Shown here piece after piece: positions 18,489-29,172 of a stretch of DNA of 64,000 nt (positions within the stretch are counted from its first letter, which is position 1; every line of letters starts with the position of its first letter). Location of the stretch: assembly GCA_022843605.1 (NCBI GenBank), contig JALHNI010000016.1, positions 1-64,000 of the forward strand. The letters are read 5' to 3'. The stretch comes from Bryobacter sp. Lineage in GTDB: Bacteria > Acidobacteriota > Terriglobia > Bryobacterales > Bryobacteraceae. Made by a program: the position numbers and the translations under genes. The notes beneath the pieces are model-generated. The model was not told where the DNA came from. It was given only the letters and a program-made list of their open reading frames with translations, and did no database searches.

Positions 18489-19232
18489 TTAGCGACCGAG
18501 AATCAGGTTGGCGCCGAGTAGCAAACGCTCATCGGCCAGCACTTCGGCCGGACTCCCCCGCCCCGCGATGCGGCCCTTGTCCATCACCACGCACTCGCCA
18601 GCGATCTCGTCTAGTAAATGCAGATCGTGGGTGGCGGTGATGATCGTCTTGCCTAAGTCCTCCCAACTCTTCATCAGGTCCACAATCTGCCGTTGGCTGC
18701 GCGGATCGAGCGCGGCGGTAGGCTCGTCCAGCAGGATTACTTCGGGATCCATAATCAGCACCGAAGCCAGCGCGACCCGTTTTTTCTCACCACCCGACAA
18801 GCGATGCGGGGCACGATCCTTCAGTTCGGCGATCTCAAAGTACTCGAGAGCCTCGGCGACCATCGCCTTGATCCTGTCCTTGGGCCAACCCAACTGCAGG
18901 GGACCGAAGGCCACTTCATCAAAGACGGTGGGGCAGAAGAGTTGGACGTCGGGATTCTGAAAGACCAGACCGACCCGCTTGCGGAATGAGTGCGCAAAGG
19001 CGTCATGCTCGAAATCGTGTTCGGTCAGTGGAACGCCGTGATACTTCACGATGCCAGAATCCGGGAAGTACAAGCCATCGAGAATGCGCAACAACGTGGA
19101 CTTGCCGCAGCCGTTTGCGCCCAGCAAAGCGAGCCGTTGCCCCGCCGGAATGCTCAGGGAAACCTTGTCGAGCGCCACGACGCCGCGATAGGCAAAACTT
19201 ACCTGCTCGAGTTCAAAGACGTTCAGCGCCAA
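18489..19232 (-). CDS. cbiO: ECF transporter ATP-binding protein (cobalt/nickel)
   Basis: Walker A GANGCGKST, LSGGEKKRVALA signature, Walker B VILLDEP; start uncertain (TTG 19232 proposed, ORF open to 19277). Confidence 0.9.
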   Translation of the reverse strand: MALNVFELEQVSFAYRGVVALDKVSLSIPAGQRLALLGANGCGKSTLLRILDGLYFPDSGIVKYHGVPLTEHDFEHDAFAHSFRKRVGLVFQNPDVQLFCPTVFDEVAFGPLQLGWPKDRIKAMVAEALEYFEIAELKDRAPHRLSGGEKKRVALASVLIMDPEVILLDEPTAALDPRSQRQIVDLMKSWEDLGKTIITATHDLHLLDEIAGECVVMDKGRIAGRGSPAEVLADERLLLGANLILGR

Positions 19233-20041
19233 AGGGCGACCCCGCTCCCTACCGCCAGGATCGACAGAATGGCCCAATCGCGTACGCGCAAGGGACTCTC
19301 ATCGAGCGCATGCACCTCGCCGCGATAGCCGCGCGATTGCATGGCTAGATGGATGTCGCTGCTCAACTCGAAAGCCTTACTCATCAGCACCCCAACGGTG
19401 GCCAAGGCCATCGCGCGTCGCTCTTTCGCCGGCAATTCACCGGCCAGACGGCTCTGCCGCCCTTCCAGCATATCCATGGTGGTCTGGATAAACAGGAAGA
19501 TATAGCGGTAAGTCATGCCAATCAGCACCACGGCGACCACGGGCAACCGGAACGCGCGCATCGCCCGCAGCAAATGATTCCAGGGCGTCGTGGAGACCAA
19601 CACCGAGCCCACGGTACTTGTGGCAAGTACACGCGCCAGCAGAAATGTCGCGGCTTGCAACCCTTGCTTCGTCACGCCCCACCCGAGCGGCTGCCCTGGC
19701 GTGAGGAACAAAGCCGGCAGCGCGATGACGCCGCTGAAGAGAAGGACGCTGATCCAGAGGGTGAGGAGTTCGCGCACCTTCAAATGGCTGGCGAACGCCA
19801 GCGTCACGGTGACAACGAAAACGGCGGCCAGCAGCCAGAGCGAACGGGATGCCGCGGCGGTGAGGATCAGGATGCCGGCTCCGGCGAGTTTCACCCGCGG
19901 GTCGATTCCTTGCAGGAGACCACTCGACGTCGACAAAAGCTCCGCCGAAAACGAACGATCCAACACATGAGCCAACTCCGCCAGCGTCCGGTCCAGAAAG
20001 CCCTTCCGCCGGTGCACCAGATGGTGCAAACCTTCAGACAT
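19223..20041 (-). CDS. cbiQ: ECF transporter transmembrane (T) component
   Basis: CbiQ-like membrane protein with AMQSRGYRGE motif; between cbiO and cbiM. Confidence 0.88.
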   Translation of the reverse strand: MSEGLHHLVHRRKGFLDRTLAELAHVLDRSFSAELLSTSSGLLQGIDPRVKLAGAGILILTAAASRSLWLLAAVFVVTVTLAFASHLKVRELLTLWISVLLFSGVIALPALFLTPGQPLGWGVTKQGLQAATFLLARVLATSTVGSVLVSTTPWNHLLRAMRAFRLPVVAVVLIGMTYRYIFLFIQTTMDMLEGRQSRLAGELPAKERRAMALATVGVLMSKAFELSSDIHLAMQSRGYRGEVHALDESPLRVRDWAILSILAVGSGVALWR

Positions 20042-21071
20042 TGCGCCGCCTGAAGGCTACCAGTGAAAACAGGATGATCAAGCCCGTGCCCGCCATCGCC
20101 GACAGAACATAGCCAAATGCGGCGCTCTTCAGGATGGGCGGTGCATAGTCGGGAATTGGCGCGGTCCAGATCGTGGAAAGCCTCTGCAATCCGGCCGGAG
20201 CCGTCGCCGGGGCCTGTCCTTGCGAGGCGGACGCGATCTCCCGGCGCGTTTCGGGGTTCGCAAAATCTTCCGGCGCCCACTCGCCCCAAGCCGATCCGAC
20301 GGCCAACAGTCCCAAGGGCGTCAGGATCATCAGCAGCGCCAGCCCTGCCCAAAGCTTACGCAACGAAGCCGCCGCCAGACTTACTTCGGCCCCGGGCGCC
20401 TCGCGCGCCAGCAAGGTGGGGTCCGTCCGCTGCAGGTAGGAAACGACCCCGGCCGAAACCAGGAACTCGGCGAATCCGGCAAAGGTCAAATGACCGATCA
20501 TCATCGCTGGAATCGCAATACTCAGTGGGTATGGCGCATAGAGAGGCGTGCCCGCCGCGTCACGAAACAGCATCGGCTGCAAGCCGAATTCAATGGCGGT
20601 AATCAGTGCGGCGGCGTTGATGCCGGCGTAGCCCGCCAAACCCGCGGCCAGCAATCGCCGCGACGAGCCCATGGCCGAAGTGCCGGCCACCAGGCGATAA
20701 ACCAGAGACGCGACCAGGCTGCCAACAATGGCAATGTTGAAGCAGTTCGCACCAATCGCCGTGATCCCGCCGTCGCCAAAAAAGACCGCCTGAATCGCTA
20801 GCGCGACGGAAATGGCCAGCATGCCGGCCCACGGACCCAGCACTACCGCCGCCAGTCCGACACCCGTGGCATGCCCGGTCGTGCCGCCAGGCAGAGGCAG
20901 GTTGAACATCATGATCACGAAGGAAAAGGCGGAGAAGACGGAGATCAGCGGGACGAACCGCGTATGCAGTTGCCGCTTCACTTTTTGCATGGCCACATAC
21001 CAGAACGGCGCCGCCGACGCGTAGGCGATCGCGCAGGTGGAAGGACTCAGATAGCCGTCTGGAATGTGCAT
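20034..21071 (-). CDS. cbiM: CbiM/NikM-type substrate-binding membrane protein with fused PDGLE-like C-terminus
   Basis: MHIPDGYLSP start characteristic of CbiM/NikM; C-terminal PIPDYAPP and TM segment; metal (Co or Ni) not decidable from sequence. Confidence 0.88.
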   Translation of the reverse strand: MHIPDGYLSPSTCAIAYASAAPFWYVAMQKVKRQLHTRFVPLISVFSAFSFVIMMFNLPLPGGTTGHATGVGLAAVVLGPWAGMLAISVALAIQAVFFGDGGITAIGANCFNIAIVGSLVASLVYRLVAGTSAMGSSRRLLAAGLAGYAGINAAALITAIEFGLQPMLFRDAAGTPLYAPYPLSIAIPAMMIGHLTFAGFAEFLVSAGVVSYLQRTDPTLLAREAPGAEVSLAAASLRKLWAGLALLMILTPLGLLAVGSAWGEWAPEDFANPETRREIASASQGQAPATAPAGLQRLSTIWTAPIPDYAPPILKSAAFGYVLSAMAGTGLIILFSLVAFRRRNV

Positions 21072-21453
21072 ACGATCACCACTATTGTGCTACAGCCCGC
21101 TGCCGCCGCCCTCCCCGTTCCTCTACGCGAAACCCAACGCAACGATTGACTCCGTTTACGACTGTGTCCAAGTAAAATCTTGCGCGTCGGCGATTCCGAA
21201 TCCCGCCCGCTCAAAGTGCAGATCAATTCAACAGATCCCGAATTGACATTCAAAAAATACCTTAACAAGTGTCGAAATACCCCATGCTTAGTTACAAATA
21301 TGAAGGGCGCTCAATTCTCCAACACTTCGCCGTCCCGACGAATCGAAAACGCTCGTATCTTTTTGACTTGACTTTACTTATGGTTCCGCCAAATACTTCA
21401 TGGAGCGTTTCTAATCCAAACGCATGCAACACAAAGGAAACGAGATAATCAGT

Positions 21454-21678
21454 ATGGCAATTTCCATTACCGCTACGAAAGCCGGCCGATTCGGCAAGGC
21501 TGCCGTTGAGATCGCCTTTGACCCGGGAACGCCCCTGGATGACATCCTGAAGGCGCAGAAATCGATCTTCGCCGACAAAGCCCTCGCCAAAAAGATCGGC
21601 TTGAAGTTCTGCGGCGGCTGCTATTCCGGCCTTGACCTGGACATCAAGCAGAAGTTTGAAAACGTGGTGAACTTCTAG
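21454..21678 (+). CDS. Small CGGC-motif protein, putative RiPP precursor of the adjacent MNIO
   Basis: 74 aa MAISITATKAGRFGKAAVEIAFDPGTPLDDILKAQKSIFADKALAKKIGLKFCGGCYSGLDLDIKQKFENVVNF; only two Cys, in CGGC; 3 nt from the MNIO gene; no signal peptide. Confidence 0.75.
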   Translation: MAISITATKAGRFGKAAVEIAFDPGTPLDDILKAQKSIFADKALAKKIGLKFCGGCYSGLDLDIKQKFENVVNF

Positions 21679-21681
21679 CTT

Positions 21682-22563
21682 TTGCCTTCTGTACCCCAGC
21701 CGAAGTTGGGCGTTGGTCTCCTCTTCAATCCGGTGTTACCGGAGTTCGTCACGTCGCACGCCGATGCCTTCGACTACCTGGAGATCATCCCTGACCGCGA
21801 ATGGTCCGACCGCGGCGTAGACGCTACGCCGCGGTACGCTACGCTCGATGCCTCCTTCGACCTTTTCCGCCGCGTTCGCGAACGGAAACCCTTGCTTTGC
21901 CACTCCATCGGACTCTCCATCGGCAGCGCCGGTCTGTTTGACCTGGGCCACGTGGATCAGATCAACCGCATTCAAACTGAGCTCGATTTTGCCTGGCACA
22001 GCGACCACCTCTCCTTTGCCCGCTTACCCGGCGAACACGAAATGCACACCGCGATTTCCATGCCGGTCCCCTATGACCAGGAAGTTCTTCAGTTGATCAA
22101 AGACCGCGTAGAACACATCCGCGCCGAGGTTCCCTGCCCGTTTTTGCTGGAGAATAACGTCTATTACGTCGACGCGCCGGACCAGGAGATGTCAGAGCCC
22201 GAGTTCCTCAATCGCCTGGCGCGCGAGTCCGGCTGCGGCATTTTGCTCGACTTGCACAATGTCTACGTCAACTCCCGCAACCACGGCTTCACGCCGGAGT
22301 CCTTTCTGCGCGACCTCGATCTGTCACAGGTAGTGGAGTTGCATATTGCCGGCGGCGATGATCTGCTCGGCTTCTATACCGACGCCCACGCGGGTCCGGT
22401 GGCGGAGCCGGTTTGGGGCCTGCTTGAAGACACCTTGCGCGCCGCCCCCGCCGTCTCCGCCGTCACCTTCGAGTTTCACGAGTCGTCCTATCCCATGCTC
22501 AAGACCGAAGGAATTGTGGCCGAACTGAGCCACGCCCGCCGCATCTGGGATCGATACGCCTAA
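21682..22563 (+). CDS. DUF692 / MNIO family multinuclear iron oxidase-like protein
   Basis: TTG start; HSIGLSIGS, DFAWHSDHLSF, FLLENN, DLHNVYVNS, ELHIAGG, DAHAGPV and FEFHES motifs. Confidence 0.9.
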   Translation: MPSVPQPKLGVGLLFNPVLPEFVTSHADAFDYLEIIPDREWSDRGVDATPRYATLDASFDLFRRVRERKPLLCHSIGLSIGSAGLFDLGHVDQINRIQTELDFAWHSDHLSFARLPGEHEMHTAISMPVPYDQEVLQLIKDRVEHIRAEVPCPFLLENNVYYVDAPDQEMSEPEFLNRLARESGCGILLDLHNVYVNSRNHGFTPESFLRDLDLSQVVELHIAGGDDLLGFYTDAHAGPVAEPVWGLLEDTLRAAPAVSAVTFEFHESSYPMLKTEGIVAELSHARRIWDRYA

Positions 22564-22565
22564 CC

Positions 22566-23180
22566 ATGTCCCTCGCCGCTTATCAGGAAGTATTGTGCCG
22601 CATGGTAGCTTCGGCCGCCTACCGCGAACGATTTCTCGCGCAGTCCGACGAATTTCCCGGGCTGACGCCCCTCGAACTGCATCGCCTGCGTACTGTAGCC
22701 GCGCAGCCCGGCATGCGGGTGAATACCGCCATCCACCGCGCCAACCGCATGGCGCCACTCCATCAGACGCTGCCGTTCACTTGCTTTCTGTTGGGCGAAC
22801 AACTGCGCGAAACGCTCGATCGTTTCTGGGGGCTCTACCCTTCCGAGAGCCTGCAATTGGACACCGAATGCGGACGATTTACTCACTTCCTCATGGAGGA
22901 GTTGAACACCGGCCGCGTCACTGGCGCTTACGTCGAAGAGGTGCTGCTCTTCGAGCGGGCGTGTGCCGAACTCCGGCTCCGCAAGCCGCCGCTCCTCCGT
23001 GTAGTCCGGTTTCGCCACGACCCGGAACCCTTGCTGGCCGCGCTCGCCCAACTGGAACTTCCTGATCCCGCCCCGGAACCCGGCGACTATCACCTGGCGA
23101 TCGATTGCCGCCAAGGAGACGCTGACTTCTACGTCCTCTCTGACCAAGCCGCGGCAACGATTCTGGCGCCCCGCAGCTAG
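22566..23180 (+). CDS. MNIO partner protein, DUF2063/TglI-like
   Basis: 2 nt after the MNIO stop codon; ~200 aa alpha-helical N-terminus and PGDYHLAIDCRQGD-type C-terminal domain. Confidence 0.65.
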   Translation: MSLAAYQEVLCRMVASAAYRERFLAQSDEFPGLTPLELHRLRTVAAQPGMRVNTAIHRANRMAPLHQTLPFTCFLLGEQLRETLDRFWGLYPSESLQLDTECGRFTHFLMEELNTGRVTGAYVEEVLLFERACAELRLRKPPLLRVVRFRHDPEPLLAALAQLELPDPAPEPGDYHLAIDCRQGDADFYVLSDQAAATILAPRS

Positions 23181-23446: not shown

Positions 23447-24157
23447 CTAGAGTGAAGAGGCGGTGGGAGACGGCGTGATGTAGAGCCGGACGGCAATTTC
23501 GGCGCCAGTGACTTTCAAGTGGGCATTGCCGGCAAGGGCCATCAAGTCATTCAGCGTGTCCGCCAGTGGACCCGTTCTCAGGGCCTCCATCGCGGGCACG
23601 CCGGCATGGCTCAGGCTCAGCGTCACCTCGACGGCACCATCCGCCTGCGAATTGGAACTACTGCCAAGATCCACGGCATCGTCGCCGGCCAAACCCGCCA
23701 GAAACTGCAGCCACGCCTTCAGAACGTCGCCCCAATGCGGCTCTACCCGAACATCCTGCCACTCCAGGCCGGACACGGTAAACGGCGCACCCGATCGCTG
23801 TAGGTTCGCCTCCAGCACAGCCAGGCAAACGACGTCCGCTAACGACGGTAGCGCCTCCGGAAATCTAGCCACAGGCACTTCCTTCTGTCGCAGCAGCTTC
23901 TTCCTCACGCCAAGACTCTTCAACCGCGGAAACTCGGCCGGCACTGGATCCGAAGTCGCCTGCCAATCTGCCATGCGTTTACTGACGGACTTCTTCACAC
24001 GGCCCCGGGCGCGGCGCAGGTTGGCGCGTTCGCGGGCGATCACCGGATCGGGACGGAAGGCGGGCTGGCTCAAGTCGGCAAGGCCGGGTTCAAACTTCGG
24101 CTTTTCATGGGAATCAGTCAACACAAATTCTCCTGACGGCAACGAAACGGTGTACAT
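23447..24157 (-). CDS. Hypothetical protein
   Basis: Start taken at ATG 24157 (MYTVSLPSGEFVLTDS); downstream terminator; no recognised domain. Confidence 0.55.
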   Translation of the reverse strand: MYTVSLPSGEFVLTDSHEKPKFEPGLADLSQPAFRPDPVIARERANLRRARGRVKKSVSKRMADWQATSDPVPAEFPRLKSLGVRKKLLRQKEVPVARFPEALPSLADVVCLAVLEANLQRSGAPFTVSGLEWQDVRVEPHWGDVLKAWLQFLAGLAGDDAVDLGSSSNSQADGAVEVTLSLSHAGVPAMEALRTGPLADTLNDLMALAGNAHLKVTGAEIAVRLYITPSPTASSL

Positions 24158-24197
24158 CTCAACGCGTTGCCCACCCTGAGACCAGCGAAATCCCCTG

Positions 24198-24240
24198 AAA
24201 GTCACATTAATATTAATTAACCAAAATGCAATGTGACTTT
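24198..24240. promoter_or_regulatory. Perfect 11-bp inverted repeat in a divergent intergenic region, candidate operator
   Basis: AAAGTCACATT (24198-24208) and AATGTGACTTT (24230-24240), 21-bp AT-rich spacer. Confidence 0.5.
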
Positions 24241-24310
24241 TTGAGGAATGAAATGGTCCTCTGTACCGGAAGGCAGGTTTTGCTAGCCTAAGGGTCTCGC
24301 CCACGCCATC

Positions 24311-24898
24311 ATGCCGCCCTCATTCAAGAACGAATCCGACGATCTGGAAGCACAATTGGTACGTTCCGCACAGCAATCGCCCGAAGGCGATTCCCGGGCC
24401 TTTGAACAGTTAGTGCAACTGCATCAGAAGCGTGTTTTGGCGAATTGCCGTTATCTCACGCGCGATGAAACGAACTTCGAAGACCTCGCGCAGGATGTTT
24501 TCGTAAAGGCCTATTTCGGCATCCGTAAATTCGAAGGCCAATCGACCTTCGGCCATTGGCTGCGCCGCATCAAGGTGAATCACTGCCTGAACCATTTGAA
24601 GCAGCGCGAACGCAAAACTGCGATCGGCTTCGGCGAGGAAATTCTCCCCGAAGACGACCGCCTGCGGGTGGAGCCCACGGTCGAGAAATCTCTGGAAGAT
24701 TCGTCTCAACGGCAACGAGTAGGCGAAGTCCTGAAAGCCTTGCCGCTTACGCTGCGCGTGCCGCTGGTCATGACCGACATGGACGACTTCTCTTACGACG
24801 AAGTAGCATCCGCCCTGGGCATCAGCCTCTCAGCCGTCAAGATGCGGATTAAGCGGGCCCGCGAGGAGTTCCGCCGCCTTTATCAGGAGCCAGCATGA
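24311..24898 (+). CDS. Sigma-70 family (ECF) RNA polymerase sigma factor
   Basis: Region 2 NFEDLAQDVFVKAYFGIRKFEGQSTFGHWLRRIKVNHCLNHLK; region 4 FSYDEVASALGISLSAVKMRIKRAREEFRR. Confidence 0.93.
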   Translation: MPPSFKNESDDLEAQLVRSAQQSPEGDSRAFEQLVQLHQKRVLANCRYLTRDETNFEDLAQDVFVKAYFGIRKFEGQSTFGHWLRRIKVNHCLNHLKQRERKTAIGFGEEILPEDDRLRVEPTVEKSLEDSSQRQRVGEVLKALPLTLRVPLVMTDMDDFSYDEVASALGISLSAVKMRIKRAREEFRRLYQEPA

Positions 24899-27285: not shown

Positions 27286-29172
27286 CTACTTCGCCACCAC
27301 TTCCCAAGCCTTAGTGCCCGCCTCTACCAGCTTCACCAGATCCGGCAGCTTCCCCACGAGCGCCAGCAACCCCTCCCATGCCTTTGCCGCCGCAGACTTC
27401 GAGGCCTCCTCCGCCGGAGCCTTCGCCGCCACGGCTAGCGTCTCCACTTGCGCCTTTGCCTGTACCCGCTGAATCTCACTTAGCTGCGTCGCCTTCGCAA
27501 TCCCCTGCATCAGTTCGCTCAGCACGGCAGCCAACTCCGCCGCGCCCGGCCCGCCCGATTGCTGCAAGCTCTGCACCACCTGGCTCACATCCCCACTCAA
27601 CGACGCCACCTGCGAATCCTTAATCGTCAGTCCGCCCTGATGAACATGAATGCTCTTGTCTTCCATTTTGCGATCTCCAATCTGCACTCCAGCAGCAGCA
27701 GCCGCCAGAGCGATCTGAGTTATATCCCGGTTATGCGCTTCCAGCATCCCGATTTTCGATTCCGCCAATAGTAACTTCACTTCCCAACTGCTCACCAGCG
27801 TGCGTTCGACGGCCGCCTCCGCCGTCCCCGCCGGTACGTCCAGGCTCACCAGCACATGCTCCTCGCGATTCTCAAACTTGCGGATGCTCACTTCCGGATG
27901 CTGCGTCTGCAATTCCACAAACGCCTCCCGCATCGCCTCCCGCGAAAGCCCCTTCTTCAGCAGTACCTCCATCTCCTCCAACACCTTGCCAAAGAGCGTC
28001 GCAAACTCGCCCGGTTCGAAATTTCGCTCCGGATCGGCCGGACGCCGCTTTCGGCTACCCGTTCCATCCGGCTGCTCCAGCAGGTAAACATACCGGCACT
28101 GCACGCCCCTAAATTCGGTGGTAGCGTCGATGTTCCAGCTCTCGATGCACGCACCAGTCAAATCCGCGCCCCGCAGCACCGCCCCCGTCAGATTGGCTTC
28201 GCGTAGATTGGCCTCCCGCAGGTCACTATCCGTCAGGTTGATGCCATGCAGATTTAGCCGGACGTAGTTACGCTTCTGGCCGTCGCCTGTCGTCGCCAAC
28301 TCCCGCACCGCCACCTGCCCCAGCACGGCGTCTTCGTGTACGCTCTCGTCGAGCCCCGTCGCCGTACGCCAATTCACACGCGTCAGCGTCGCTGCGCCCA
28401 GCCTCACGCCCGCCATCCCCGTTCCCGCAAAGCAAGCCTCCGTCAGGTCCGCTCCGGTGAACCGCGTCCCGCCGATCGCCTGCAAGCTGCGTGCGCCATC
28501 GATCGCCAGGTCAAACCGGTCGTCCTTCTTCCGGATCCGCCAACTGAGGTAAAGCTGGTAGCTCGGCAGGAGGATGGCCGCCACCATAACTCCAATTTGG
28601 TCTGATCCTTCTGTGAATGCGACTGCGCCTGCGACTGCGCCTGCGCCTGCGACTGCGAATGCGACTGCGCCTGCGCCTGCGACTGCGAATGCGACTGCGC
28701 CTGCGCCTGCGCCTGCGCCTGCGAATGCGCCTGCGACTGCGACTGCGACTGCGCCTGCGACTGCACCTGCGATCCAAACGAGCGTTTGCTTGCGAAACCC
28801 ATATCGCGCGGTGGCTACTAAAGTAGCCACCGCGCTCACGAAAAACGTTCCCCACTGGATCAGAGTCTCCACGTCAGTCGCACTGAAGACACTCGCAGCA
28901 ATGCCCAGAATTGAGATCCCGAGGAACGACAACACCACCGACGCCACGAACGCCAAACTCGACACAACAAGCGCTGTCCCGGACGACCGCCCCATCCGCG
29001 CCCCATCAAACCGCGCCCCCCGCAGATCCGCCCCGCGAAAATCCGCTGACCGTAAATCACAATCCCGAAAGTCCGCCCCGCGTAGCTTGGCCCGGCGAAA
29101 ATCGGCTCCTACCAGAGCCTGCCCTTGAAAGCTTCGCCGGTTTAATTCCCGATCTGCATACTTGTGCGCCAA
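27286..29172 (-). CDS. Pentapeptide-repeat protein with Ala-rich transmembrane segment
   Basis: Repeated A(D/N)(L/F)xx units at two places (FRRAKLRGADFRDCDLRSADFRGADLRGARF; LTDSDLREANLREANLTGAVLRGADLTGACIE). Confidence 0.85.
   Translation of the reverse strand: MAHKYADRELNRRSFQGQALVGADFRRAKLRGADFRDCDLRSADFRGADLRGARFDGARMGRSSGTALVVSSLAFVASVVLSFLGISILGIAASVFSATDVETLIQWGTFFVSAVATLVATARYGFRKQTLVWIAGAVAGAVAVAVAGAFAGAGAGAGAVAFAVAGAGAVAFAVAGAGAVAGAVAFTEGSDQIGVMVAAILLPSYQLYLSWRIRKKDDRFDLAIDGARSLQAIGGTRFTGADLTEACFAGTGMAGVRLGAATLTRVNWRTATGLDESVHEDAVLGQVAVRELATTGDGQKRNYVRLNLHGINLTDSDLREANLREANLTGAVLRGADLTGACIESWNIDATTEFRGVQCRYVYLLEQPDGTGSRKRRPADPERNFEPGEFATLFGKVLEEMEVLLKKGLSREAMREAFVELQTQHPEVSIRKFENREEHVLVSLDVPAGTAEAAVERTLVSSWEVKLLLAESKIGMLEAHNRDITQIALAAAAAGVQIGDRKMEDKSIHVHQGGLTIKDSQVASLSGDVSQVVQSLQQSGGPGAAELAAVLSELMQGIAKATQLSEIQRVQAKAQVETLAVAAKAPAEEASKSAAAKAWEGLLALVGKLPDLVKLVEAGTKAWEVVAK
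28614..28775. repeat. Hexanucleotide tandem repeat (TGCGMC-type) inside the pentapeptide-repeat gene
   Basis: Runs of GCGACT/GCGCCT/GCGAAT; on the coding strand GCAGTC/GCAGGC/GCATTC = Ala-Val/Ala-Gly/Ala-Phe dipeptides. Confidence 0.9.

Follow-up and report, generated by a model that had tools for sequence, protein, structure and literature searches.

A three-gene MNIO cassette with a putative CxxC substrate protein in a Bryobacter genome

The oxidative enzymes of the MNIO family (DUF692/PF05114) form a large group with few characterised products. Most of the known members target Cys, usually together with a partner protein (PMC12452194, PMC13097082, PMC13419390), whereas some act on Asp or Phe instead (PMC13060819, PMC12257519). 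For the enzyme pairs BufBC, HvfBC and FonBC, the product is a 5-thiooxazole (PMC12452194, PMC13097082, PMC13419390). The main text of Antoine et al. 2025 (PMC12452194) describes a group named adjamnio-7, comprising signal-peptide-less CxxC proteins encoded beside MNIOs of SSN cluster 7, with a representative from Novilysobacter spongiicola (WP_078758616), and associates partners of PME-type 2 with signal-peptide-less precursors. In the literature, we found adjamnio-7-type cassettes as predictions and no characterisation of them, and a search for work on MNIO precursors in Acidobacteria returned none. Here, we analyse a cassette of this appearance in the soil acidobacterium Bryobacter sp. (Acidobacteriota, Bryobacterales), located in a 64,000-nt stretch of contig JALHNI010000016.1 of assembly GCA_022843605.1, hereafter the window.

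Layout of the cassette and its enzymes

The cassette consists of three genes on the forward strand, encoding a 74-aa protein considered as putative precursor or substrate (21454..21678), a 293-aa MNIO starting with TTG (21682..22563) and a 204-aa MNIO partner (22566..23180). Positions and lengths reported in the earlier note agree with the ORF calls, as do the gaps of 3 nt between precursor and MNIO and of 2 nt between MNIO and partner. An alternative in-frame ATG at 21424 would extend the small protein by ten residues to 84 aa; the best alignment of its relatives starts at 21454. Upstream of the cassette, a weak sigma-70-like promoter match on the same strand (21368..21397) shares 9 of 12 consensus bases, but with one match found versus 0.6 expected it says nothing on function.

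As the earlier note had stated, no protease or peptide exporter adjoins the cassette. The closest transporter is a divergent cbiMQO-type cobalt/nickel importer on the reverse strand (CbiM with PDGLE, CbiQ and ABC ATPase; 18489-21071), 382 nt away, which we did not find recurring beside the cassettes of relatives. An Rfam search upstream of the cassette returned no riboswitch or other RNA, and thus an RNA-based link between cassette and cbiMQO is not indicated. On the other side, a 285-aa protein that matches no Pfam family (23447-24304, reverse strand), whose gene is followed by a terminator-like hairpin (23388-23358), is divergent from an ECF-type sigma-70 gene (24311-24898, forward strand). 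At 27286-29172 (reverse strand) lies a gene for a pentapeptide-repeat protein, which contains a long stretch rich in Ala, Gly and Val.

The MNIO was assigned by Pfam, alignment and phylogenetic tree: it matches PF05114 (MbnB_TglH_ChrH) with an E-value of 8.5e-60 and 202.7 bits (cut-off 25), and its best match in the PDB is TglH (8hci), aligned end-to-end at E 6e-30. The metal-ligand motifs, previously noted as intact, indeed align with TglH and the HvfB-like protein 3bww throughout (HSIGLS, SDH, LLEN, LDLHN, HIAG, DxH and FE). Residues D234 and H236 align with the DxH pair that provides the site-3 ligands in HvfB and is required for activity (PMC13419390), and the Asn metal ligand is most probably N193. 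None of the NCBIfam equivalog cut-offs is reached, with BufB scoring 166.8 of 310 bits, and therefore the chemistry is not transferable from the named families.

The partner matched DUF2063 below threshold (E 0.16; relatives’ partners E 0.02-0.03), and a partner from Brasilonema matched ApyI at E 0.0013, far under the cut-off of that family. A search of PDB sequences with a partner profile gave nothing useful. Foldseek comparison of the AF2 model (pLDDT 86.7) with the PDB returned 8hi7_A (E 1.8e-5) and 8hci_A (E 7.1e-5) as the only significant matches, both representing TglI, the helper protein of the MNIO TglH. Thus, it was the fold search alone that tied the partner to TglI, whereas the sequence-profile search did not. 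With a gene that follows the MNIO, a predicted TglI-like fold with a short C-terminal part and no DUF2063 signature, the partner fits the PME-type 2 kind. At one locus (L055), MNIO and partner occur as a natural fusion in a single ORF of 563 aa.

Linkage, distribution and the conserved core

We searched 257 genomes of the same order as Bryobacter and, using an alignment of MNIOs, scanned GTDB genomes, the latter yielding 70 loci. The same-order genomes hold about ten related MNIOs, whose scores stand apart from those of the remaining MNIOs in the order. All strong precursor matches in these genomes (9/9) adjoin an MNIO of the clade described below, and two further matches at E about 0.009 are chance-like. 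Scanning genome contigs with the single sequence of the 74-aa protein gave no match. In the MNIO tree (quick search without bootstrap, SH-aLRT support), the enzyme of the window falls into a clade of 44 rows with a support of 98, which spans seven phyla (Acidobacteriota, Gemmatimonadota, Cyanobacteriota, Bacteroidota, Myxococcota, Planctomycetota and Pseudomonadota) and leaves TglH and HvfB outside. At each of the 41 clade loci L053-L093, a same-strand ORF containing C-x-x-C-x-S-G lies upstream of the MNIO, which is far more than expected by chance, since the motif occurs in five of the ~3,090 remaining ORFs at these loci (about 0.16%; lengths of 40-250 aa). Five pairs of related small ORFs have dN/dS ratios of about 0-0.26. 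The small ORF thus represents a genuine gene that tracks the MNIO, and its relatives are under purifying selection; its retention beside this MNIO, on which the earlier reading of the locus depended, extends across phyla.

Two members of the same MNIO clade, from Phenylobacterium (L119) and an acidobacterium (L037), carry C-x-C-x-S-G in place of C-x-x-C-x-S-G. A further clade MNIO (L083, 1845-2669; same locus as L045) shows an in-frame loss of ~20 residues, the LLEN metal-ligand segment among them, and is either an inactivated enzyme or an assembly error; precursor and partner are present there. The cassette is missing from a genome of the same genus (G001), and the nearest relative of the window’s MNIO is a Gemmatimonadota protein with 56-57% identity, versus at most ~49% within its own family (full-length matches), which suggests that the cassette was acquired by lateral transfer. 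Surveying the neighbours of the clade loci, we found no gene besides precursor, MNIO and partner that recurs across distant lineages, and in particular no protease, exporter or metal-linked gene. The cassette therefore represents a minimal three-gene unit that lacks a protease or exporter of its own.

Both Cys residues of the small protein are internal and lie in LKFCGGCYSGLDLDI (CGGC motif). Consistent with the earlier description, no signal peptide is evident, the N-terminus being without hydrophobic stretch, and searches of Pfam and NCBIfam as well as a fold search returned no match to a known enzyme family. The core identified by precursor alignment, CGGCYSGLD (C53-D61), is encoded at 21610..21636 on the forward strand. 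Among 28 aligned precursors, C53, C56, S58 and G59 are the only invariant positions. Hence, of the motif CGGCxSGxD that had been proposed as invariant, the C-x-x-C-x-S-G core is constant but the trailing Asp is not. This bears on the possibility that the MNIO modifies Asp or another core residue, e.g. by β-hydroxylation of D61, while the Cys pair merely binds metal or forms a disulfide. Such chemistry has precedents in the Asp hydroxylases PesH and PflD and in ApyH, by which Asp is oxidised (PMC13060819), and Asp at the D61 position is common, though variable, in the family. However, the position is occupied by Asn in Taibaiella, His in Terrimonas, and Pro or Val in Sphingomonadaceae and Bradyrhizobium, whereas the Cys pair and Ser-Gly are retained throughout the alignment. 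Since the Asp is not conserved, we regard its modification as improbable and favour the Cys pair as the site.

The AF2 model of the precursor, of moderate confidence (pLDDT 75.7; ~63 in the Cys loop), predicts a strand-strand-helix-helix scaffold followed by the Cys loop and a strand. Fold search against the PDB returned no significant match for this model, and the top-ranking MamM C-terminal domains were set aside at E 0.12. Beyond the core, which is their common part, the precursors differ in frame. Most are leaderless with a small predicted scaffold, whereas those of Brasilonema and Nostoc carry a double-glycine-type leader (LSEQE...GG) with weak Bacteriocin_IIc and ComC matches, and those of Taibaiella, present in two copies in two strains, carry a KLxL...GG-like leader. 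One MNIO clade thus serves both scaffold-type and double-glycine-leader precursors. These leaders are what would be expected if the product were a secreted RiPP, whose core would be cut out by a protease from another locus and then exported, with the N-terminal part as a genuine leader. Such a fate of the product is compatible with Cys modification. Nevertheless, we consider it rather unlikely, as we found neither a protease nor a transporter recurring around the cassettes of different lineages, and the precursor type of the Bryobacter window lacks a GG site and has a small folded domain as its predicted structure.

The strict linkage to the MNIO and the partly folded state predicted for the small protein could also be explained if it were no substrate at all but a subunit with a regulatory or structural role in the MNIO-partner complex. 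But strict conservation is confined to the Cys-containing loop, with the remainder ranging from folded scaffold to GG leaders, and therefore a substrate core fits better than a subunit interface. Moreover, two precursor copies are present at some loci (L060, L078 and L091). A subunit role is accordingly very improbable in our view, and we retain the assignment as substrate.

Small Cys-containing ORFs also accompany other MNIO branches. In a more distant clade (L041 883-2797, L044 921-2958, L109-L117), MNIO-partner fusions of ~466-502 aa are preceded by small proteins that often have a pair of Cys modules (either GCxxC[CFH]SG twice or, as the second one, a HPACATGCD-like module). In other branches (L038-L040, L095-L097, L006 and L047), small ORFs lacking a leader encode GCxxCG-type loops (GCDKCGRL, GCLACGLVGVD, GCRTCGLAGWD) and are possibly further precursor families. 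At L007 (2730-3089, reverse strand) and L009 (468-1118, forward strand), a protein with the Cys-rich C-terminus CGGCSGCSNSGCSQCG is encoded upstream of an MNIO, and the partner of this enzyme seems to bear a PqqD-like C-terminal domain.

Proposed function of the cassette

Taken together, the conserved small ORF, the predicted TglI-like fold of the partner and the lack of a match to a known enzyme support the original reading as a RiPP-like MNIO cassette; the modification itself we infer. We consider it likely that the locus is a minimal MNIO maturation cassette, in which the 74-aa protein is the substrate and its Cys are oxidised by MNIO and partner. The substrate role, the Cys pair as site, the scaffold role of the N-terminal part and a role in metal binding are our best guess. 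That is, the folded N-terminal part of the 74-aa protein would serve as an in-built recognition scaffold. The TglI-like partner would bind it and present the CGGCYSGLD loop to the iron centre of the MNIO. Using O2, the MNIO would then oxidise one or both Cys in C-x-x-C-x-S-G. The likeliest product would be 5-thiooxazole, corresponding to a loss of 4 H per Cys, which we propose because it was shown for the large BufB/HvfB/FonB branch; as an analogy, and provided that Cys is modified at all, we give it somewhat less than an even chance. The modified CxxC may give a small cytosolic protein a soft-metal (Cu(I)-like) binding site. A bolder version, which we hold to be doubtful, is that the same MNIO-partner pair installs an undescribed modification, such as linked heterocycles spanning the CxxC or a core-specific ring that also involves the invariant Ser-Gly, on a small folded protein of the cytosol which functions intact in metal binding or redox chemistry, and that the clade also came to be used for peptides with double-glycine leaders in cyanobacteria and Bacteroidota.

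Comparison with described MNIO systems

The pearlin system TglA/TglHI of Pseudomonas syringae resembles the cassette in the predicted fold of the partner and in TglH as best PDB match of the MNIO. However, TglA gains a tRNA-derived C-terminal Cys, whereas the two Cys of the window’s protein are encoded and internal. Membership in the pearlin group was rejected on this ground and by the tree, in which L115 and L118 are the loci grouping with TglH, away from the clade of the window. BufABC, HvfABC and FonABC (bufferins, oxazolin and captophorins) share the gene order precursor-MNIO-partner and a Cys-containing precursor, but their precursors have Sec signal peptides and their partners are true DUF2063 proteins, neither of which is found here. 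Judged by Sec signal peptide, DUF2282 or 6/12-Cys precursor, DUF2063 partner and BufB equivalog score, the cassette is not a bufferin system (Buf1/Buf2) either, as the precursor has no Pfam match, DUF2063 stays sub-threshold and the BufB score falls short as given above.

Adjamnio-7, in contrast, agrees in the CxxC motif (CGGC here, CRPC in Lysobacter), the missing Sec signal peptide and the neighbouring MNIO. This comparison is by description, the main text of PMC12452194 giving the CxxC motif and one representative. Cassettes of Lysobacter spongiae, penaei and aestuarii (L081, L086, L088) contain CRPCLSGLDR, and their MNIOs, with 43-46% identity to that of the window, sit in the window’s clade, wherefore the cassette is very probably a member of adjamnio-7. 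Thus, it is not as unusual as initially thought, but very probably belongs to a group that was already predicted in 2025, as far as the main text describes it. What our analysis adds is the C-x-x-C-x-S-G core as invariant in different phyla, the strict linkage of small ORF and MNIO, the predicted TglI-like partner fold and the distinction between scaffold-type and double-glycine-leader precursors, the core and the GG-leader precursors being absent from that main text. The clade offers a clean handle on MNIO chemistry, with an invariant seven-residue core, 41 loci in seven phyla and a three-gene unit that is directly co-expressible. The cassette could thereby reveal whether MNIO substrates include folded proteins of the cytosol besides leader peptides, and whether the chemistry tracks the core motif or the precursor architecture.
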